From contig JAJRQV010000087.1 in NCBI GenBank assembly GCA_024280035.1, forward strand, positions 1 through 64,000: DNA of 64,000 nucleotides, written 5' to 3'. This document shows positions 5,117 to 16,729 of the stretch, in pieces; the stretch's first letter is position 1, and every line of letters starts with the position of its first letter. Origin of the DNA: Campylobacterales bacterium (GTDB lineage Bacteria; Campylobacterota; Campylobacteria; Campylobacterales; Sulfurimonadaceae). The notes beneath the pieces were generated by a model. The model made no database searches, was not told the DNA's origin, and was given only the letters and a program-made list of their open reading frames with translations. Position numbers and translations under genes: made by a program.

Positions 5117-5918
5117 ATAACCCCTCCAAAATCCCATCAACATCATTCACATTATCTAAGGCTGACTTTTCATTTCTAGGGGTTTTTTTCATATTTGAGT
5201 CTCCTGCACTTTCACGTGCCCTGCTCTCATCTTGTTTTTCCCAACCCACAATATAATGTGAACCAATATCTCCTGAAATAGAGGACAGAGGTTTTACAAA
5301 AATTGAAGGATAGGTGGTAGGACAGGCATGTTCACGCATTCCACAGCCTGTACACACATCTGGGTGTACCACAGGCTTTAAAAAAGCATGCATATCTGTG
5401 CGTGTATTTCGCTCTTTAAACAGACTAATAGCATCACCCGTGAGAGGGCAGGCTTGAAAACATAAGGTACATTGCAAACCTAAATAAGCAAGACAGGTCT
5501 GTGTATTAATCAGAGCCAGCCCCATTTTTGCATTATTAATAGATAAAACATCATCTCGAATAAGGTTTTTAAGTTCAAGTGCCCTTGTTGGACAAGAAGA
5601 GGCACAAGGAATATCAATACACATCTGACATGGATCTTTACGAGGTTCATAAAAAGGAGTGCCCAAAGAGACATGGTCAGTAATTTTAGAAAGTTTTAAG
5701 GCATCATAAGGACAGACTTCTACACAAATTCCACAACGAATACAGGTTTTGACAAAGTCCGCCTCACTTAATGCCCCAGGGGGACGTAAAACGTCTGAAT
5801 TGGCTTGAGACTGCTTAAGATAAACACCCCAAGCCACAGTACCAAAGGCATAATATCCTACCCCATGGATAACTTTTAATAAAAAGTTTCTTCTTTTAGT
5901 AGTATTTGGAGTTTCCAT
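5109..5918 (-). CDS. napG: NapG-type periplasmic ferredoxin
   Basis: 269-aa Tat-exported polyferredoxin. The N-terminus carries a twin-arginine signal (TKRRNFLLK at about 7-15, then a hydrophobic helix). Four cysteine clusters follow: CIRCGICVEVCP, CQMCIDIPCASSCP, CTLCFQACP and CTGCGMREHACP, enough for four [4Fe-4S] centres. This is the NapG pattern. The protein forms a quinol dehydrogenase with NapH. It is the first gene of a napG-napH-napL group with overlapping ends. Its dedicated reductase is not in this window, so it may serve a nitrate, nitrous oxide or other periplasmic reductase elsewhere. Confidence 0.9.
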   Translation of the reverse strand: METPNTTKRRNFLLKVIHGVGYYAFGTVAWGVYLKQSQANSDVLRPPGALSEADFVKTCIRCGICVEVCPYDALKLSKITDHVSLGTPFYEPRKDPCQMCIDIPCASSCPTRALELKNLIRDDVLSINNAKMGLALINTQTCLAYLGLQCTLCFQACPLTGDAISLFKERNTRTDMHAFLKPVVHPDVCTGCGMREHACPTTYPSIFVKPLSSISGDIGSHYIVGWEKQDESRARESAGDSNMKKTPRNEKSALDNVNDVDGILEGLYD

Positions 5919-6104
5919 AACCTTCCTAAAAACCCATTATTAATAAGTGATAACAACTTATTTTCACATTTAGCTTATTCGATAAGCTTAGTTAATAATA
6001 GTACTCCTAATTTTTCACTTTGTCAATGAAAGAAAGATAATCTTTTATTATACTTATATATTACTATAAATAAGTAATAGTATATGCACACATATAAGTT
6101 ATTT

Positions 6105-7178
6105 TTATTTATCTATACAGCTATAAACATCCACATTCCCATTTTTAGGCTGCATGAAAACCCATTGTGCTGTCTCATAATTTAAAATTGGAACCTCTTT
6201 ATATAATGAGATTAGAGAGGTCTGAATATCTTCTTCTTGAGGTTTGGACAGACTCTGTTTAAAGATTTTTTCTCGTTTTTGAGAATTTTTAAGTAACTCA
6301 GATTCATACCACTGCTTTTCACGCATCTCTTTCATATAGGGTTTTTCATTATGTTCCACAAAAGGGGAAGTTTCTAAATCATAATGATTGGTCTGAATTA
6401 AAAAGTTTTTCTCTCCCATTGTACGAATATGTACTTTTTTACTTCCCAATTCAATCACACAGGCTTCTCCTTTTTTCACACCACACAAACTAATAAAACA
6501 AGGAGAACCCAACTCCCAAGACTCTATATTTTTCATCGCTTTTTCATAACTATTTATATTCTCATCTTCAAGCAGTTGACGAATTAAAAATGTAGGGTCA
6601 GACTTAAATTTAGCCGAACGTTTCTTTGGCGCATAATTGATGGCAACAGAAAAACCTTTTTTAGCTCCCGTTAAAACACCTACCATACCCGTAATACCTG
6701 CAATTTGTGCTATTTCAGAGCCCTCTTTATTAATAAATGAAAAATGTCTTGTAGACCAAGCAATATCATCAGCACCCTTCCAGTCTAAGGATCTAAAACA
6801 GACCATCTCTTCTTTTTTCGAATCCCAAATCATCACGACAGAGCACCCCATATGTGATAAGGTGTACTGTCTTTGCAAAAAAGCCATTAGTGAGTTTGAC
6901 ATAAAAGAGCATTGTGAGGCTAAATAATCACTCTCTTTCACATAATGCCCCCACCATCTGTATACAAGGTTATACAGTAGTTTCGCACTAAAATGAACTA
7001 AAACCTTAGATACACCTACTTCATATACCAGTTGACTCATTGCCGTACACAACTCTTTTATAGACTTAAGATCTTTTTCTACAACATCTTTCCAAATCTC
7101 TTGAGGATGAGAAGCCTGTATATATATTTTTCTATTTTGGGTAACTTTAGTAATATTTTTATAAGGATTACTTAGCAC
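6105..7178 (-). CDS. Acid-ceramidase/NAAA-like linear amide hydrolase
   Basis: 357-aa protein that resembles the Ntn-hydrolase branch containing acid ceramidase and N-acylethanolamine amidase. The block GCSVVMIWD...FRSLDWKG (C112 onward) matches the family pattern Cys-Thr/Ser-x-Val...Arg-Asn/Ser-x-Asp. GMVGVLTGAKKGFSVAIN at about 165-182 matches the conserved Gly-rich strand. C112 would be the nucleophile exposed by autocleavage. There is no clear signal peptide. It overlaps the Aas-like gene by 11 bp and is the last gene of the MerR-Aas unit, which suggests it releases a fatty acid from an N-acyl lipid for re-use by Aas. Substrate is inference. Confidence 0.65.
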   Translation of the reverse strand: MLSNPYKNITKVTQNRKIYIQASHPQEIWKDVVEKDLKSIKELCTAMSQLVYEVGVSKVLVHFSAKLLYNLVYRWWGHYVKESDYLASQCSFMSNSLMAFLQRQYTLSHMGCSVVMIWDSKKEEMVCFRSLDWKGADDIAWSTRHFSFINKEGSEIAQIAGITGMVGVLTGAKKGFSVAINYAPKKRSAKFKSDPTFLIRQLLEDENINSYEKAMKNIESWELGSPCFISLCGVKKGEACVIELGSKKVHIRTMGEKNFLIQTNHYDLETSPFVEHNEKPYMKEMREKQWYESELLKNSQKREKIFKQSLSKPQEEDIQTSLISLYKEVPILNYETAQWVFMQPKNGNVDVYSCIDK

Positions 7179-10100
7179 CTGTTAACTCCATCGCTAATTT
7201 TTTAGCTCCTGCAAAATCACTCTTACCTGAACCCAGTTTAGGTACATTTTCAACTTCAAAAATCTCAGAAGGAATCGTTAATGAACTCATGCCTGAATCA
7301 ACAAGGGCTTTTTTCAGCTCAGATACCTTATCATAACCTTGAATCAGTAAAATCACCTTTTCTCCTTTTTTCTCATCAGGAAGATTCACTGCAATTAACT
7401 CCACATCAGCATTATTAATTACCTTGTGAATTTCGGATTCTACACTGCCTAAAGAAACCATTTCTCCTGCTAATTTTGCAAAACGTGAATAACGATCAAC
7501 GATATATAAATAACCATCTTCATCAATATGCCCCTTATCTCCTGTTTTATACCAGTGCGAACCTTTTATTTCTGCCATCACCTCTTGTGTTTTATGTTCA
7601 TCTTTTAAATAACCCTTCATTACCTGAGGACCACCAATAAGAATCAAACCATCTTCATTAGCACTTAACTCGTGTAGCGTAGAGGGGTCAACAATTTTAA
7701 AGGCAGTACCCGGCAGCGGCATACCAACACTTCCATCTTTATTACCCACTTGAATACTAAAACTGTCTGTTTCTAAAACATCAGGAAGATTTACACTCGC
7801 TACTGGTGCAGACTCTGTTACCCCATACCCTTCTAAAATGGTTTTATGATACTTCGATTGAAATGCTTCTTTAACCTCAGGGCTTAGTTTTTCAGCCCCT
7901 GAAACAGCCATTCTAATAGAGTCAAACATTAATGGATGCACCTTTTTATTTTTTGTATACAATCTAAAAAATGTTGATGTACCAAACATAACCGTGGCTT
8001 GAAATTTTGCCACTGCCTTACCAACACCAACAGCGTCAGTGGGATCAGGATGGCAGACCATTGGAACACCTTCAATCAGAGGTAACCATGTTGTTGCCGT
8101 AAGACCAAAGGCATGAAAAAGAGGCAGTGAAGCCAAAACAACATCCTCATCTCTCATATTTAAAATATCAGAAATCTGTTTAACATTTGACATAAAATTT
8201 TGATGGGTTAGCATCACACCCTTGGGTTCTCCCTCAGAACCTGATGAGAACAAGATTGCAGCAACACTGTCATTAGGAACTTTTTTGATATACAAGAGCT
8301 TAATTAACCATGCCGGTAAGATTTTTATTAAGATCAAAATACTTATGGCAGAAAACTTAGATATTTTCTCTTTTAACTCTTCAAGATAAACAACATTTAC
8401 CCCCTCAAGTAAGGCCTTGGTATCAAACCCTTTTGCATCTAACTTCGTCATAAACTGTTTAGCCGTATATACTGTTTTAATCTCTGCTTTTTCAATTGCT
8501 GAAGCAACAGAACTTACAGGAGCCGTATAGTTTAAGTTAACCACCGTTTTTCCTCTCATCAGCGTTGCCATATTAATAATAGCTCCTGCCGTTGTTGTTG
8601 GCATTAATATACCAATATTATCTTCTGTATTTTTCTTAACAAATCGAGAAAACAAAATCGTTGCACTTAAGGCTCTGGTATAAGAGAGACTGGCTCCCTT
8701 AGAATCAGCCATACAAAACTCCGAACTTAACTTAGATGCTGTGTCTACCCAAGATTCTTGCATTGAAGGCAACTCTTGAGTATATTTTTCCCATGAAGTA
8801 AAAGAGAGTTCAAAAACCTTCTGTTTTACTTCTGCTGTTGAACTACTAATATCAATAGCCTCTGAAAAAGCAACAATCACCTCACGACGACGTGTTTTTT
8901 TAGCCTCTTTAAATTTTGAGGATGATCGAGAAAGTTTTGAGCCCCACATTCCACGAAGGAAAAAAGGAACAATCACCGCATCTGCATCCTTAGCCATCAG
9001 TTCAAAACCACGTTTAAATTCACCTAACTGCCCATTTCTACTGATACTTCCTTCAGGAAAGATACAAACAACCTCACCTGCATTTAGAAGTTCATTCACC
9101 TTTGAAGCAGCTTCTTTAACCCCACGGCTTGACACTGGAATAACCTGAAAAAAATCTAAAAAGATTTTAAGATACCACTTCTCATAAATGGCTCTGTCCA
9201 TTACATAACGAACCCGTCTAGGCATTGTCATTTGAATAATTGCCCAATCTAACCATGAGATATGATTACCTAAAAGAAGAACCCCTCCACTTTGAGGAAT
9301 ATTATTAAAACCAAGTACCTCCAATTTAATACGTCGAGAAATCAAAGAGGCCATTAGAAAAATCACCAAAGATTGAGGAATTTCTCTTAATACATAAATA
9401 GAGCCAAGAACAGACACTATAAGCATCATATAAAACAAGCCAATGCTGTTAATACCCCAAACGGCAAAAGCAACTGTAAGCCCTAAGAAGAAGGTCATTG
9501 TCACGTTTTGAACAAAGTTATTACCTGCAATAATTAAACCTAACTCATTTTTTGGTGCATTAAATTGAATAAGTGCATTCAAGGGCACAATAAAAAGCCC
9601 TGCAAAAAAACCAAAAAGAAAGAAGTTAAAACCATGCACAGATATACTTTCAATATTTGGTAAAAAGAAAAGTGTTGCTGAAATACCTAAGGCACCTAAG
9701 GGAATTGTTCCTGTTTCGATATAGTTTCGAGAGACCTTACCTGCAATTATAGAACCCAGTACAATACCAAACCCCGCTAATGCCATCATCCCTTGAACAA
9801 CAATAGTATTACTAATATCTAAACTCTCTTTTGCGTAAGCAGGAAAACTTGCTAATACCACTTGAGAGACTGACCAAAAGAGGGAGAGTCCAATAATAGA
9901 ATGAAAGATAAGACTGTCTTTAGAGATGATTTTTATATTCTCTTTGAGATACGTTGCTGTGTAATATTTTTTAATATCAAAACGACGTTCAGAACCTATA
10001 TTGGTGATAGGAAGGGTATAAGCTAAAATTAATTCAATAATAGAACCCACTACTAAAGCCCAGCCAATAGGTGCGATATGTTCAAGTATCTCTTTGCTAG

Positions 10101-10617
10101 AGCTATAAGTCTTTTCATCTAAAAAACCTTCAAAAAAGACTGAATAAACAAAAATTCCAAGAAGAATTGCTACCGTTGTAACAGCTTGCACCACACCATT
10201 TCCAAGGGTAAGATGTTTATTTCCTACCAATTCTTTAATATAACCATATTTTGCAGGTGAATAAATTGCTGATTGAACTGCCAAAATAAAGGTGAGAAAA
10301 AAGGCTAACTCAAAAGCGCCCATATAATACGAAGCCGTAATACCTAAGGTGATAATAACAGCGGCAATAGCAGCCACACGCATCACTTTGGCCTTTGAAA
10401 AGCGATCAGATATAAAACCAGACGGTGAAAAGAGTAAAATAAAAGGAATTAAAATAAGAGCATTTATAATAGCCGTTAATATAATCTGTGTTTGACCATC
10501 ATAAATCTTAAAGACTGTGTTTTGTATAATAATCTTATGACCTAAGTCTGTAAATGCATTTAAAAATACAACAACTATATAAGGAATAAACCCCGTGACT
10601 TTCCAGATACTAGACAT
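7168..10617 (-). CDS. aas: Aas-type fusion: LplT-like MFS flippase + PlsC acyltransferase + acyl-ACP synthetase
   Basis: 1149-aa three-domain enzyme for lysophospholipid recycling. Residues ~1-415 are an MFS transporter like LplT (about 12 helices), flipping lysophospholipid inward. Residues ~430-640 are a PlsC acyltransferase with NHISWLD (HxxxxD) and FPEGS. The rest is an AMP-forming acyl-ACP synthetase with SSGSEGEPKG, GYGVTES and WYKTGD. The start at 10617 is chosen because AAAGGAG lies 5-6 bases upstream; an ATG at 10638 gives a longer overlap with merR. It overlaps merR by 8 bp and the amidase gene by 11 bp, so all three are one operon. Fusions of this kind are known in several phyla. 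Confidence 0.9.
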   Translation of the reverse strand: MSSIWKVTGFIPYIVVVFLNAFTDLGHKIIIQNTVFKIYDGQTQIILTAIINALILIPFILLFSPSGFISDRFSKAKVMRVAAIAAVIITLGITASYYMGAFELAFFLTFILAVQSAIYSPAKYGYIKELVGNKHLTLGNGVVQAVTTVAILLGIFVYSVFFEGFLDEKTYSSSKEILEHIAPIGWALVVGSIIELILAYTLPITNIGSERRFDIKKYYTATYLKENIKIISKDSLIFHSIIGLSLFWSVSQVVLASFPAYAKESLDISNTIVVQGMMALAGFGIVLGSIIAGKVSRNYIETGTIPLGALGISATLFFLPNIESISVHGFNFFLFGFFAGLFIVPLNALIQFNAPKNELGLIIAGNNFVQNVTMTFFLGLTVAFAVWGINSIGLFYMMLIVSVLGSIYVLREIPQSLVIFLMASLISRRIKLEVLGFNNIPQSGGVLLLGNHISWLDWAIIQMTMPRRVRYVMDRAIYEKWYLKIFLDFFQVIPVSSRGVKEAASKVNELLNAGEVVCIFPEGSISRNGQLGEFKRGFELMAKDADAVIVPFFLRGMWGSKLSRSSSKFKEAKKTRRREVIVAFSEAIDISSSTAEVKQKVFELSFTSWEKYTQELPSMQESWVDTASKLSSEFCMADSKGASLSYTRALSATILFSRFVKKNTEDNIGILMPTTTAGAIINMATLMRGKTVVNLNYTAPVSSVASAIEKAEIKTVYTAKQFMTKLDAKGFDTKALLEGVNVVYLEELKEKISKFSAISILILIKILPAWLIKLLYIKKVPNDSVAAILFSSGSEGEPKGVMLTHQNFMSNVKQISDILNMRDEDVVLASLPLFHAFGLTATTWLPLIEGVPMVCHPDPTDAVGVGKAVAKFQATVMFGTSTFFRLYTKNKKVHPLMFDSIRMAVSGAEKLSPEVKEAFQSKYHKTILEGYGVTESAPVASVNLPDVLETDSFSIQVGNKDGSVGMPLPGTAFKIVDPSTLHELSANEDGLILIGGPQVMKGYLKDEHKTQEVMAEIKGSHWYKTGDKGHIDEDGYLYIVDRYSRFAKLAGEMVSLGSVESEIHKVINNADVELIAVNLPDEKKGEKVILLIQGYDKVSELKKALVDSGMSSLTIPSEIFEVENVPKLGSGKSDFAGAKKLAMELTGAK

Positions 10618-11260
10618 CTGTTCTCCTTTTGTGCTCATTTTTAGTTTGTAAGTTAAAGATATAAGGTTTTAGGGTAAGAATAAGATCTAAAAACAATTCC
10701 TGTGCATTATTTGTCTTATCTTTTTCTATCAGCTCACGTCCAAGTTTAAATTCAAGCACAGCTAAATCTTTTGCACATTTGAGATAGTTTTTAAGCAGTT
10801 TAGGTGATTTCGAACATTTTTGAAGATCATTTAAGATTTGTAGACTTTTCCACGATTCATCAGAAAAATACCCCTCATGCATCTCAAGCAGTCCTGTCTC
10901 TACATAACTAAGAAGCGTTTTTTTATCTAAGTCATATACCTCAAGAGCATTACCAAGGCTTTTATAATGGCGTTCACGCACCCCTGTAAAAAGATCTAAT
11001 TTTTGCACTAAACCCTCTACTCCTGCACTAAAATCAAAATGATTATCATCAAAAATCTGCTTAATTTGGGTAATGGAGTAATGAAGTTGATTCTGAAGTG
11101 TTTTAATTAAACGCACCCGTTCAATGGAGTCATCATCATAAAGATGTACATTAGGTTTAGGCTTTTGAGGTTCACGCAATAAACCCTCTTTAATATAAAA
11201 AAGAAGTGTCGAACGGGTTTCTCCCGTTTCCTTCATTAAACTTGCCATTTTTATTGACAT
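10610..11260 (-). CDS. MerR-family transcriptional regulator
   Basis: 216-aa regulator with an N-terminal MerR winged helix (residues ~1-70: SIKMASLMKETGETRSTLLFYIKEGLL, then a coiled coil starting near YSITQIKQIF). The C-terminal part looks like a second helical domain with YETGLLE-like repeats, not the Cys-rich metal-binding loop of MerR/CueR, so the effector is probably not a metal. It is first in the operon with aas and the amidase. A near-perfect 25-bp palindrome sits over its -35 box, so autoregulation of the whole operon is likely. The inducer is unknown; a fatty acid or lysolipid would fit the context. Confidence 0.82.
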   Translation of the reverse strand: MSIKMASLMKETGETRSTLLFYIKEGLLREPQKPKPNVHLYDDDSIERVRLIKTLQNQLHYSITQIKQIFDDNHFDFSAGVEGLVQKLDLFTGVRERHYKSLGNALEVYDLDKKTLLSYVETGLLEMHEGYFSDESWKSLQILNDLQKCSKSPKLLKNYLKCAKDLAVLEFKLGRELIEKDKTNNAQELFLDLILTLKPYIFNLQTKNEHKRRTDV

Positions 11261-11572: not shown

Positions 11573-12280
11573 TTACTCTTTTACCTCTTCAACGAAATCT
11601 GTTCCCCAGCCTTCATATCTTCCATGTTCTCTTTCAATGATAGGAAAAAACATCTTTGTCTGTTCATTAAGTAATTCAACATTAACTGCAGATAATTTTG
11701 TAAATACAAGCCCATATACATAATCATCTTCAGCCTTCTCATCTAAAAAGTCATTTAAAAAACTAAAACCATCCTCTTCTATAGAGCTAATAAAACGTTT
11801 TCTTTGAGAAGAGGTCATAAACATAACATGATATTCGATACGATGTTCAAGACTTAAGTTATCCCCTGCTTCTTCTAAATCATTAATAATCTCTTCACTT
11901 TGGATATTATGATATTCTTGAGTATTGGGCATTAACATCTTATAATAGGTTTCATACTTTTTATCTTTTCTATTACCTGTTTCAAATTGATACTGAGGTT
12001 TTAAAGCCTCATTTACAGCATTTTCAAAACCCTTAGCAATCTCAGCATAAAAATAAAATTCTAACCAGCCCTCATTCAATTGCCAACCTACATAATCAAC
12101 ATTTAATTTTTTTAATGAATCTAATAGTTTTTGCTCAATAATAAGTAACTCTTCATCATCTCCATCAAACTTAATAAATGTGTATAAGAGGATCTCTTTA
12201 CTCTCATATATGTTCTCTTCAGGGTAAAAATCGTTGACACAGACACGTCCACCCTCTTCATTGCTATAAAATAGTGACAT
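11573..12280 (-). CDS. DUF695 + RraB-like protein
   Basis: 235-aa cytoplasmic protein. The N-terminal ~125 residues resemble DUF695 (acidic, FDGDDEELL, GWQLNEGWLEFYFY). The C-terminal ~105 residues resemble RraB, the RNase E activity regulator: GDNLSLEHRIEYHVMF, KRFISSIEEDGF, and the terminal EREHGRYEGWGTDFV, which matches the RraB EHGGxYDGWGT ending. RraB binds RNase E in gammaproteobacteria, but Campylobacterota studied so far use RNase J and RNase Y, so the partner here must differ. The gene is single and diverges from the membrane protein at 12312. Confidence 0.75.
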   Translation of the reverse strand: MSLFYSNEEGGRVCVNDFYPEENIYESKEILLYTFIKFDGDDEELLIIEQKLLDSLKKLNVDYVGWQLNEGWLEFYFYAEIAKGFENAVNEALKPQYQFETGNRKDKKYETYYKMLMPNTQEYHNIQSEEIINDLEEAGDNLSLEHRIEYHVMFMTSSQRKRFISSIEEDGFSFLNDFLDEKAEDDYVYGLVFTKLSAVNVELLNEQTKMFFPIIEREHGRYEGWGTDFVEEVKE

Positions 12281-12755: not shown

Positions 12756-12770
12756 TAATAATAATTATCA
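12756..12770. promoter_or_regulatory. Fur box A
   Basis: TAATAATAATTATCA differs at one base from the 7-1-7 Fur motif TGATAATnATTATCA. It sits immediately upstream of the porin -35 hexamer. Confidence 0.6.
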
Positions 12771-12776
12771 TTACTC

Positions 12777-12805
12777 TTGACATTGATTATAAATATCAGT
12801 AAGAT
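12777..12805 (+). promoter_or_regulatory. Porin promoter
   Basis: TTGACA (12777-12782) and TAAGAT (12800-12805) are separated by exactly 17 bp, a good sigma70-type promoter, with Fur-like boxes on both sides. Transcription would start near 12812. Confidence 0.65.
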
Positions 12806-12824
12806 TCGCCTATAAAATAGATAC

Positions 12825-12839
12825 TGATAATAATTATCA
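12825..12839. promoter_or_regulatory. Fur box B
   Basis: TGATAATAATTATCA is a perfect 7-1-7 Fur motif, located just after the expected transcription start and 22 bp before the porin start codon. Occupancy would block transcription under iron-replete conditions. Confidence 0.75.
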
Positions 12840-12861
12840 GTTGTAATTGGGAGATTGCATT

Positions 12862-14253
12862 ATGAAAAAAACACTACTATCTTTAGCTGTCGTTTCAGCT
12901 ATATCAACAAGTCTGTTCGCAGACACACAAACGGATGCTTTAAAAGCACAACTCAAGGTATTAACACAACGTTTAGACGCAATGGAAAATAAGAGTTCTG
13001 CTTATGAGGAGAAAACAGCTGTAAATGAAAAAAATATTCAAAGTAATTCTGAAAAAGCAGATACCCTACTTGAAGAGACCGCAAACCTTCAAACAGGTTT
13101 TAACTTTAATGTTGTTGATACTGACTTCTCACACAACGGTATGGGAGCTGCAGCATCAAAGGTATACACATCTAAATCACCTTTATCAATTGGTGGATAC
13201 GGAGAGATGTTTTATGCTAATAAAGAAGATGCTGATAATATTGCTGATGTTTACCGTTTTGTTCCTTATATCGGTTACCGTTTTAATGACAATATTGTTC
13301 TAAATGTTGAACTTGAGTTTGAGCATGGTGGCGCAACAGGTGGAGACAATACAGGTGAGGCTAAGATTGAATTTATGTACCTTGATTTCATGTTAAGTGA
13401 TAGCTTTAATCTCCAGATTGGAAATATTTTAGTGCCTATGGGTATTACCAATCTCCAACATGAACCTACTTTATTTAACACAGTACAGCGTCCTAATGTT
13501 GAAAAATACTTAATTCCTTCAACATGGAATGCAAACGGGTTTCTTAGCTATGGTAGTATTGGTCAGAGTGGCTTTACCTATAATGCGGGTATTATTCAAG
13601 CCCTTGATTTAAATAATGATCAAAGTGGTAATAAAAAACAGATTCGCCAAGCACGTACAAGTTCATCAAAAGAATCAACCTTTAATAATGCTGCCTTTGT
13701 AGGTCGTATAGATTATCGTGGTACACCGGGGCTTCTAATAGGAGCTTCTTTATACTACGGTTCAGCTACACAAGGTTCTGTTTCAGGTGCAACAATAAGT
13801 ATGTATGACCTCCATACCACCTATGAACATTCTGGTTTTAAGTTCAAAGCAATGTACACAGCAACTAAAATTAATGATGCCAATAAAATTGCTGGAGCAG
13901 TATTTCTTCAAGATGGAATAACTCCAGCAACATCAAAATCCATTGATAAGGCTGACGGTTATTATGTAAATGTAGAGTACAACGTGCTTAATCTTGTAAA
14001 TTCTGAATATAAGATGCCTGTATTTATTCAATATGATTATATTAATCCAACAGATTCTGTTGTTGATGCTAACAATAACTCTATTGGTGTAGATGTTAAT
14101 GCAGAAAGTACGACCACTACCTTTGGTATTAACTTCTACCCTCATGAACAAGTTGTGCTTAAAGCCGATTATGCAATGACACAATATAAAGACTCTGCTG
14201 CAACAAACAAAGATCAAGATATTTTTAGTCTAAGCCTAGGATTTATCTTTTAA
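12862..14253 (+). CDS. Outer-membrane porin (OprO/P-like), iron-regulated
   Basis: 463-aa outer-membrane protein. It has a signal peptide (residues 1-20, ending SLFA), a short coiled coil (about 22-75, as in trimeric porins with an N-terminal helix) and then a beta-barrel-like region that begins LSIGGYGEMFY and shows alternating aromatic strands, ending with FSLSLGFIF (terminal Phe, typical of outer-membrane proteins). The pattern recalls the phosphate-selective porin O/P fold. The ATG at 12862 follows a GGGAG Shine-Dalgarno; a TTG 15 bases upstream is less likely. The Fur-flanked promoter predicts expression in low iron, so the cargo may be an iron compound. Substrate is not shown by sequence. 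Confidence 0.8.
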   Translation: MKKTLLSLAVVSAISTSLFADTQTDALKAQLKVLTQRLDAMENKSSAYEEKTAVNEKNIQSNSEKADTLLEETANLQTGFNFNVVDTDFSHNGMGAAASKVYTSKSPLSIGGYGEMFYANKEDADNIADVYRFVPYIGYRFNDNIVLNVELEFEHGGATGGDNTGEAKIEFMYLDFMLSDSFNLQIGNILVPMGITNLQHEPTLFNTVQRPNVEKYLIPSTWNANGFLSYGSIGQSGFTYNAGIIQALDLNNDQSGNKKQIRQARTSSSKESTFNNAAFVGRIDYRGTPGLLIGASLYYGSATQGSVSGATISMYDLHTTYEHSGFKFKAMYTATKINDANKIAGAVFLQDGITPATSKSIDKADGYYVNVEYNVLNLVNSEYKMPVFIQYDYINPTDSVVDANNNSIGVDVNAESTTTTFGINFYPHEQVVLKADYAMTQYKDSAATNKDQDIFSLSLGFIF

Positions 14254-14278
14254 TAAAGATATTTATTTTGTCCATCAT

Positions 14279-14301
14279 CAAGACAGGCTCACTCTGTCTT
14301 G
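14279..14301 (+). terminator. Hairpin between porin and FMN-binding gene
   Basis: CAAGACAG, a 7-nt loop, then CTGTCTTG form an 8-bp perfect stem 26 bp after the porin stop. No U-tract follows, so it may act as an attenuator or mRNA stabiliser that sets porin above the downstream genes. A TATAAT follows at 14305-14310. Confidence 0.5.
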
Positions 14302-14330
14302 TGATATAATTCACAAAAAAGTAAAACACA

Positions 14331-14846
14331 ATGAAATATTTTCTACTTATACTTCTCTCTTTAAGCCTACAAGCAAAGCTTTTAATTTCACCCTTTGAGG
14401 CGATGAAACTGCACTTTGGTGAAGGCATTAAGATTGAAAAAAAGAGTATCTTACTCACTTCAGATGAAGCAAAAAAAGTCACTCAACTGGCACAACATAA
14501 ACTCAAAACAAAAATCTACAAAACCTTTCGTATTACTAAGAATGGGGAACTTTTAGCTTACGGTATTTTGGTTTTATCAAAGGTTCGTTCTAAAGATACG
14601 GCTATTCTTTCTATTATTAATACCAAGGGTATTTTACAAACCATTGAGATTATTGCCTTTAATGAGCCTATGGAATACCTGCCTTCTAAGAGTTGGATAC
14701 AGGTTTTAAATAATAAAACACTTAAGCCTACTCTTACGGTAGGAAAAGAGATTCCTTCCATTACAGCAGCAACAATGTCAGCAAGAGCCGCTACCAACTC
14801 TGCTCGTATAGCCTTAGCTATTTATGAAGTCAAGTATAAAAAGTAA
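14331..14846 (+). CDS. Exported FMN-binding-domain protein
   Basis: 171-aa protein with a signal peptide (1-15) and an FMN_bind-type domain. The C-terminal motif VGKEIPSITAATMSARAATNSARIAL corresponds to the flavinylation site of NqrC/RnfG proteins ([S/T]xxAT), where FMN is bound covalently through phosphate to Thr; T146 or T149 is the candidate. In those families ApbE attaches the FMN, and an apbE gene lies 850 bp downstream on the other strand. The protein probably carries electrons in the periplasm. It precedes the two membrane proteins with a 3-bp gap, so the three are one transcript. Confidence 0.72.
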   Translation: MKYFLLILLSLSLQAKLLISPFEAMKLHFGEGIKIEKKSILLTSDEAKKVTQLAQHKLKTKIYKTFRITKNGELLAYGILVLSKVRSKDTAILSIINTKGILQTIEIIAFNEPMEYLPSKSWIQVLNNKTLKPTLTVGKEIPSITAATMSARAATNSARIALAIYEVKYKK

Positions 14847-14849
14847 GAT

Positions 14850-15335
14850 ATGAAATTTCTTGTCTCTAAAAGCTTACGCGCTAATCCAAACTTTGTTTTG
14901 CTTCTTGGTTTTTACTCTTTTTTATTACTCTTTTATTTTACAGGTGATCTCTTTTATTTTACATATTTTTTTGGAGAGAGCCCTGATGCCGTGATTTCAA
15001 CCCTAAAGGGTAATGAAGAAGAGTTTCTAGAACCGCTAAGCCTTCTTTCTTTACTTGAACATTTTCATATTTCACTCTTTTTAGCCATTATGGCACTCTT
15101 TACAAGTATGGCAATTGTTCTTCGTCTTAATTTAAAAAGAACACATAAAAAAATCATTATCATACTTTCCATGAGCTCTCTTCTTTTAGGAAGCTTAGCC
15201 CTCTTAGCTACGTATTTCCTTGCTCAGTTTTTTGTGTATATCTTTTTTTATGGAACTATAATTTGGCACCTTGTAGGTGTGTATGCCCTACTTCTAACCT
15301 TAATTGAGCTTTTTTTGAATCAACATGATTCCTAA
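14850..15335 (+). CDS. Small membrane protein A of the flavin cassette
   Basis: 161-aa protein with about four transmembrane segments (~18-38, 62-88, 103-125 and 130-155). I cannot name a family with confidence. It shares with the next gene an order of features: a helix, FTYFFGES/NE, an acidic loop, then LLEHFHISLF with candidate haem-ligand His, and another His in IIWHLVG. That suggests a duplicated haem- or quinone-binding unit passing electrons to the flavoprotein. It begins 3 bp after the FMN-binding gene and overlaps the next gene by 11 bp. Function is inferred only from context. Confidence 0.6.
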   Translation: MKFLVSKSLRANPNFVLLLGFYSFLLLFYFTGDLFYFTYFFGESPDAVISTLKGNEEEFLEPLSLLSLLEHFHISLFLAIMALFTSMAIVLRLNLKRTHKKIIIILSMSSLLLGSLALLATYFLAQFFVYIFFYGTIIWHLVGVYALLLTLIELFLNQHDS

Positions 15336-15807
15336 ACAGCTGTACTACCTGCTCTTAGTTCTCGCCATTGGGCTCATAAGCTTACAACTAAGTACGGGTA
15401 TTTGGCTTTTTATTTTAAAATATGGACTGAGCCCTTCAGAAGTTTTTACATATTTTTTTGGAAATGAAGAACTTTTTATTATGAAAAAGAGTTTTGAAGG
15501 TCTGCTTGAAACAGCAGTGCCTCATTTTATGGCAATCTCTTTAACCATCTTTGTTTACGCACATTTTCTACTTTTTACTAAGATAATTTCTCAAAAGCAG
15601 AAACAATTTATTATCTTTGGGCTCTTCTTTTTTGCAAGTGTAGATATCTTTTCACCTTTTTTAATTATCTACGGTTTTGAAATTTTTGCTTGGTTTAAAG
15701 TCATTGCGTTTTGGAGTTTTGAAATCTTAATGGCAGGACTCTTATATATTCTCTTTCTTGTTGCTTTAAGGGCAAGAATAGCTTCAAGTTCTGCGTCAGT
15801 TTCTTAA
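15325..15807 (+). CDS. Small membrane protein B of the flavin cassette (paralogue of A)
   Basis: 160-aa protein with four predicted membrane segments (~8-28, 55-80, 88-110 and 118-150). It matches protein A in layout, including VFTYFFGNEE and LLETAVPHFMAISL, with His in VPHF and YAHF. The two start/stop ends overlap by 11 bp, so they are translationally coupled. The 3' 107 bp overlap the convergent apbE gene, which is unusual; the tail (about 35 residues: LLYILFL...SSASVS) is still hydrophobic up to residue 150, so it looks genuine. No family name is supported by sequence reading alone. Confidence 0.6.
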   Translation: MIPKQLYYLLLVLAIGLISLQLSTGIWLFILKYGLSPSEVFTYFFGNEELFIMKKSFEGLLETAVPHFMAISLTIFVYAHFLLFTKIISQKQKQFIIFGLFFFASVDIFSPFLIIYGFEIFAWFKVIAFWSFEILMAGLLYILFLVALRARIASSSASVS

Positions 15808-16729
15808 ACTTTTTATTAATAATAAGTCTTTTATCATTAGTAACTAAAAAATAAGCTATATTCATTCGTTTTAAAAATTTCAGTGCTGTAGTTAATGGCA
15901 TAACCGAGGCTGCTGTTGCATAAGCATCTAAATCACTATTAAGATAGGTCTTTGACATTAGTGTTATTGAGGCAAAGGTTCTTTGAGGTTCTCTCTTTTT
16001 AGGATTAATCAAATGATTATATTTTACCTCCTTTATAAAACGACGATAATTACCACTGCTTGAGATCGCCATATCTTCCATCTTAAAATCGGCAAGAACC
16101 TTCTCTTGAAAAGGGTTTTGTATCTGCATTTTGCACACACCAATACAGTAAATATCTCCACTCAAAGCAATAACAGCCTTATGTACACCTTGCAAAACTT
16201 CTACCGCTTTATCCACACCAAAACCCTTTCCCATTCCACCTAGATCAATAACAACATCCTTATCTATCCACGCATCTTCAGAGGTAAAGTGTAAACCCTT
16301 AAAATCAATTTTAGCCCGCTTAAGTTCATCTTTACTGGGTATGCGTTCGTCTTCACCAAAATGAAAAAGCCCCTTAGTAATAGACCCTATAGTAATATCG
16401 AAATAGCCCCCCGTCTGTTTATAATATTTTTGAGAAAGAAGAAGGGCTTCATAAGTATCTTGCACTAAAAAGACTCGGTGCTGATGATTAAGTTGATAAA
16501 TTCTAGCTTCAGGAGCATAAGAGGAGAGGGCTAATTCCACCTCTTTAATCCGTTCAAAAGCATCTTTTGAACGCTTAAGTTGATCAGGGGTCAAAGAGAT
16601 AGAAACATACGTTCCCATCAAAACCTGTGTTCGTTTTACTAAGGACTCTCCACGAAGCGAACTTAGGCATAAAAAAAATAAAGTAAAAAGAAAAAATCCT
16701 TGTATACTTTTGTTCTTTTTTATTAGCAT
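15701..16729 (-). CDS. apbE: FAD:protein FMN transferase ApbE
   Basis: 342-aa exported ApbE. It transfers FMN from FAD onto Thr of periplasmic flavoproteins such as the FMN-binding protein encoded at 14331. Evidence: signal peptide at residues 1-27, MGTYVSISL near the start, DLGGMGKGFGVDKA, the HLINPKKREP segment and DAYATAASVM, the Mg/FAD-binding DALSTA equivalent. The start at 16729 follows an AGGG; longer starts run into the upstream gene. The last ~35 residues are Gln/Arg-rich, look unlike an ApbE end and lie over the tail of the convergent membrane protein, so the true C-terminus may be shorter. It probably shares a promoter with the coiled-coil gene at 16758. Confidence 0.85.
   Translation of the reverse strand: MLIKKNKSIQGFFLFTLFFLCLSSLRGESLVKRTQVLMGTYVSISLTPDQLKRSKDAFERIKEVELALSSYAPEARIYQLNHQHRVFLVQDTYEALLLSQKYYKQTGGYFDITIGSITKGLFHFGEDERIPSKDELKRAKIDFKGLHFTSEDAWIDKDVVIDLGGMGKGFGVDKAVEVLQGVHKAVIALSGDIYCIGVCKMQIQNPFQEKVLADFKMEDMAISSSGNYRRFIKEVKYNHLINPKKREPQRTFASITLMSKTYLNSDLDAYATAASVMPLTTALKFLKRMNIAYFLVTNDKRLIINKKFKKLTQNLKLFLPLKQQEREYIRVLPLRFQNSKTQ

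Follow-up and report, generated by a model that had tools for sequence, protein, structure and literature searches.

Flavinylated proteins have been described with several kinds of partner, namely NQR/RNF, PepSY-like, MsrQ-like, NapH-like, DsbD and DUF4405-type proteins (PMC8238504, PMC11334425). Of these, PepSY-like flavinylation clusters are linked to iron and are Fur-repressed in two species (PMC8238504). Here we analysed a 64,000-nucleotide stretch (the window; GenBank assembly GCA_024280035.1, contig JAJRQV010000087.1, positions 1 to 64,000, forward strand) of a 2.51-Mb genome whose closest kin are Sulfurimonadaceae (Campylobacterota). The window contains a cassette for a porin, an FMN-bind protein, two small membrane proteins (TMA and TMB) and the FMN transferase ApbE. 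On balance, we favour the reading that this cassette encodes a Fur-repressed extracytoplasmic flavin electron-transfer system serving iron assimilation. Literature searches returned no description of it.

With the PepSY-like FMN-bind/ApbE systems (PMC8238504; FoxB structure cited in PMC11334425), the cassette has in common an ApbE, a periplasmic domain that is flavinylated there and predicted to be so here, a small His-bearing membrane protein, a link to iron and, as in some species, Fur control. It differs in that TMA and TMB lack a PepSY match and are two paralogous four-helix chains, and in that the operon is led by a porin, not a TonB receptor. Its mode of action may resemble that of the PepSY/Fur iron systems, although it lies outside that family. 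The comparison with FoxB and with PepSY-like clusters that carry TonB receptors (PMC8238504, PMC11334425) also raises the idea that the same system is aimed at chelated iron (siderophore, citrate) and not at free Fe(III); we regard this as improbable, given a porin as the only such component and no TonB-dependent receptor in the cassettes of the loci viewed.

The remaining systems resemble the cassette in part. RnfG/NqrC share the FMN-bind domain and the Thr flavinylation motif; unlike them, the protein studied here stands alone with its own membrane pair, in a genome without RnfD/NqrB. P19/FTR1 iron systems with FMN-bind proteins also tie flavinylation to iron assimilation (PMC8238504), but neither P19 nor FTR1 is present in the cassette, and its membrane proteins are different ones. 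The DUF4405/FezC cytochromes (PMC11334425) likewise comprise small membrane proteins associated with flavinylation or iron. The His pair in TM2 is spaced H-x13-H in DUF4405 and H-x12-H in TMB, and a similar SGxxLF stretch occurs late in TM1; however, TMB gives no significant match to a profile from a shallow DUF4405 alignment, and TMA is not alike.

Layout and promoter of the cassette

The porin, FMN-bind, TMA and TMB genes form one plus-strand run (12862–15807), with successive intergenic gaps of 77, 3 and −11 bp. Including the convergent ApbE gene, the cassette spans 12862–16729, downstream of two Fur boxes. The first gene of the operon (12862–14253, plus strand) encodes a Porin_O_P-like outer-membrane protein (Pfam, E = 7e-8), with the most plausible start at the ATG at 12862, accompanied by an RBS-like GGGAG. 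The FMN-bind gene (14331–14846, plus strand) encodes an RnfG-like protein with an N-terminal signal-like sequence. TMA (14850–15335, plus strand) and TMB (15325–15807, plus strand) follow, their reading frames overlapping by 11 bp. ApbE, an FAD:protein FMN transferase (15701–16729, minus strand; PF02424, E = 7e-54), is the only ApbE of the genome, and the 3′ end of its gene overlaps TMB tail-to-tail by 107 bp (15701–15807). The five-gene set of the original prediction is therefore present in full, at the positions it gave.

The overlap of TMB and ApbE measures ~90 bp in two same-genus relatives and is shorter or absent elsewhere. At 7168–10638 the window encodes a 1,156-residue protein, an apparent fusion of MFS transporter, acyltransferase and AMP ligase, where relatives have a shorter protein adjoining an RraB-like gene. 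An RraB domain fused to DUF695 is encoded at 11573–12280, and many relatives also have it upstream of their cassette.

The porin promoter is bracketed by two sites of the pattern TGATAATNATTATCA. Box 1, TAATAATAATTATCA (12756–12770), deviates from it by one mismatch; box 2, TGATAATAATTATCA (12825–12839), is a perfect 7-1-7 palindrome, with no other perfect copy genome-wide. The boxes are spaced 69 bp apart, as in relatives. Between them lies a sigma-70-like promoter, TTGACA-17-TAAGAT (12777–12805, plus strand), assigned by consensus match only, with a third, weak Fur-like site inside it (12784–12798, two mismatches). The window holds six sites with at most two mismatches, versus 0.95 expected from shuffled sequence. 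Genome-wide, seven sites have at most one mismatch, versus one for the reversed-pattern control. Two of the seven, including the perfect one, lie at the cassette promoter and two others at a porin–FeoB locus of the same genome; the recurrence of the motif at that locus favours its identification as a Fur box. On C48, locus L085 (4199–8035) has Fur boxes upstream of genes for a porin-like protein and FeoB, the latter split into two frames (5912–7156 and 7169–8035), perhaps by an assembly error.

Among relatives, a Fur-type site with at most two mismatches occurs in 35/38 porin promoters versus 12/176 other upstream regions, a difference whose Fisher values ignore shared ancestry, so that kinship inflates their significance. 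These sites are retained while the flanking DNA diverges. In many relatives they form pairs 63–71 bp apart, often ~68 bp, around the promoter, and a TTGACA...TATAAT-type element lies between the paired boxes in many of them. The genome encodes a Fur closest to the Helicobacter-type model and another member of the Fur family that most resembles PerR. Judged by its promoter and those of its relatives, the cassette is apparently Fur-repressed, which bears out the earlier proposal of Fur boxes and Fur-type control at the porin promoter. We found no expression data in the literature on its response to iron or Fur.

The FMN-bind protein and its membrane pair

The FMN-bind protein of the window matches Pfam FMN_bind with E = 0.04, below the cut-off, but each of the 43 relatives in the alignment reaches E ≤ 0.1 against PF04205, the best 7.5e-8. 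Among solved structures, RnfG is the closest: the FMN-bind profile matches RnfG of 9ERI at E = 1.9e-10, and the flavinylation motif aligns with the TGAT/TGST motif of RnfG. This motif, residues 145–151 (14763–14783, plus strand), reads TAATMSA in the window and mostly TGATLSA in relatives. The predicted FMN site, T148 (codon 14772–14774), is invariant in 80 sequences. The locus combines two features of an ApbE-dependent flavinylation system: an FMN_bind domain with the Thr motif, and a cognate ApbE encoded beside its substrate.

A search with the window's own sequence detected a single FMN-bind protein in the genome, where none exceeds the Pfam cut-off. RnfD/NqrB was not found in this genome, and PF03116 was absent from all 8 genomes tested. 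With one FMN-bind gene and no RnfD/NqrB, the genome offers ApbE no further evident substrate of these types. Membership of the FMN-bind protein in an RNF/NQR complex was considered and rejected because the PF03116 partner is missing. Across 100 genomes, ApbE is found in 44/45 that encode an FMN-bind protein versus 8/55 that do not. We infer that ApbE attaches FMN covalently to Thr148. The flavinylation motif and the pairing of the two proteins had both been predicted, and the invariant T148, the match to RnfG and the position of the sole ApbE agree with this.

AlphaFold2 models of TMA and TMB (mean pLDDT 91.9 and 93.9, respectively) each consist of four long helices, and loop charge suggests that both termini of either protein are cytoplasmic. 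TMA H73 is conserved in 78/78 sequences and H140 in 74/78; R92, F77, G42 and G54 are also invariant. In TMB, H67 and H80 are conserved in 66/66 within the invariant stretch P66-H67-x12-H80, and K125 in 95%. Models and conservation together agree with the predicted pair of coupled four-helix proteins with conserved His. By hhalign, the profiles of TMA and TMB can be aligned over 137 columns (97.6%, E = 4e-12), and whole-genome searches with the TMB profile recover TMA genes too; the two are therefore distant paralogues.

Profile searches placed neither protein in a family. Pfam searches with TMA, TMB and their relatives (54 TMA and 41 TMB members), and NCBIfam searches with the window's own two proteins, gave no match or scattered chance matches. 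The same members gave no match to the PepSY or MsrQ/ferric-reductase Pfam families, nor did TMA or TMB have a Pfam match to any described flavinylation partner type. A sequence-profile search of the PDB returned no match, and Foldseek and VIA-align yielded generic helical-bundle matches only, among which no cytochrome stood out. Kinship of TMB with DUF4405 was not supported, with a non-significant hhalign E of 0.032 and a probability of 1.6%, obtained with a shallow DUF4405 alignment of 8 close sequences; Pfam gave no DUF4405 match for TMA or TMB, and TMA was not alike by hhalign against the same shallow alignment. TMA–TMB is apparently an undescribed membrane pair of no known family.

We read this pair as an electron conduit because it co-occurs strictly with the FMN-bind protein, its genes are coupled, its His residues are invariant, a membrane donor is needed and the cassette offers no other candidate. 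Against this reading, TMA and TMB match no electron-transfer family. The conserved His residues make haem in TMA–TMB plausible, but a fixed four-His di-haem scheme is unproven because H140 is replaced by Asn in 4/78 TMA sequences. As judged from the helix limits of the models, not from coordinates, TMA H73, TMA H140 and TMB H67 would lie in the outer half of the membrane and TMB H80 deep, near the inner face. H80 being the sole deep His, the trans-membrane path is incomplete on paper. It is possible, although we would stop just short of calling it probable, that TMA–TMB form a heteromeric membrane conduit for electrons that belongs to none of the classes described for flavinylated proteins and is dedicated to one flavoprotein for iron reduction in Campylobacterota; in it, TMA H73/H140 and TMB H67/H80 may hold haem that the subunits share.

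TMA–TMB could instead be a permease for Fe(II) or another metal, with the flavoprotein preparing the iron and drawing its electrons from elsewhere. The combination of conserved His with no recognisable electron-transfer family would fit such a role, as would the P19/FTR1 systems, which pair FMN-bind proteins with a permease (PMC8238504), and the gene for MntP, of a manganese exporter family, that follows TMB in several relatives. However, all genomes tested already have FeoB, and TMA and TMB have few conserved acidic residues (TMA D33 and E70) and no conserved Cys. Strict co-occurrence of TMB with the FMN-bind protein does not discriminate between permease and conduit. We consider a permease unlikely.

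Conservation and iron-related neighbours

Synteny outside the source genome, the test set by the original prediction, was found. TMA follows the FMN-bind gene in 38/39 testable named loci, TMB is present in 36/38 with FMN-bind, and the convergent ApbE in 31/35. The porin lies upstream of FMN-bind in 29/34, of which 24 were scored by script and 5 from coordinates (L033, L052, L053, L059 and L066; gaps >100 bp). The core set recurs, more diverged, in five further families, bringing the total to six or more within the order. In the 100 genomes, TMB is present in 42/45 with an FMN-bind protein and in 0/55 without one. A single-sequence contig scan, the only search that reached other phyla, found 44 relatives, which bear Campylobacterota-type names where named (one reads just ‘bacterium’); the 397-genome profile search covered Campylobacterota alone. 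The porin is missing in some relatives, and locus L035 has the FMN-bind gene with neither TMA nor TMB.

Additional genes occur within or beside the cassette in some branches. In one Sulfurimonas branch, a gene for a five-CxxCH cytochrome c lies between TMB and ApbE (L038, 7439–8542; L052, L056, L060, L062 and L064). Another branch has a gene for an MntP-type manganese exporter after TMB (L036, L039, L040, L044, L047, L053, L054 and L058), and MntP-like genes are found near ApbE in L128, L130 and L131.

Neighbouring genes connect the cassette to iron uptake. In L035, L048 and L063, an operon encoding an imelysin, a di-haem oxidoreductase, a second imelysin, a hydroxylase and a porin-like protein runs divergently from the FMN-bind gene, and Fur-like sites lie in the intergenic region that the two share. 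A similar imelysin operon in Pseudomonas aeruginosa is Fur-regulated and has been assigned to iron uptake (PMC3143127). In L129 (6536–11405), a second FMN-bind gene, a short ApbE gene and a gene for a DUF6662 protein adjoin FeoA–FeoB. FeoB is so widespread in the genomes tested that its co-occurrence with the cassette is uninformative. The Fur motif at FeoB and, in relatives, the proximity of the imelysin operon to the cassette gene and of FeoAB to an FMN-bind paralogue nevertheless uphold, independently of one another, the proposed link to iron uptake.

The same neighbourhood bears on another explanation, in which the cassette is an iron-sparing redox module whose flavin carrier replaces haem or iron–sulphur carriers in periplasmic respiration or detoxification, with an acceptor other than iron. 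Fur control alone would be compatible with this, substitution of flavin for iron has been discussed (PMC8238504), and the five-CxxCH cytochrome c downstream in some relatives would suit it. By contrast, the neighbours FeoAB and imelysin are iron-uptake genes, the cassette has no conserved gene for a dedicated terminal reductase, and the porin shares the operon. An iron-sparing role thus appears to have a low probability.

Proposed electron path and implications

Under the favoured reading of a flavin system for iron assimilation, Fur would leave the paired boxes when iron is short, and the porin, FMN-bind protein, TMA and TMB would be made. The secreted RnfG-like protein would receive its FMN from ApbE at Thr148. 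TMA and TMB would form an inner-membrane complex that carries electrons to this periplasmic flavin, the source probably being the quinol pool and the route probably b-type haem on the conserved His. The flavin would then reduce Fe(III), or Fe(III) complexes admitted by the porin, and the resulting Fe(II) would be taken up by FeoB. The route through the helix pair, the ferric acceptor and the porin as entry for iron complexes belonged to the original prediction and stand as proposals, so that this prediction is supported in part.

Sulfurimonas and other chemolithotrophic Campylobacterota play an important part in marine redoxclines and vent plumes (PMC10066037); we found no study of iron reduction for uptake in these organisms. 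The conserved, Fur-boxed cassette, which has a single ApbE, a single substrate and a single membrane pair, is a clean test case for the function of flavinylated proteins and for their electron supply. If TMA–TMB do carry electrons, they would extend the catalogue of transmembrane classes known for flavinylation.
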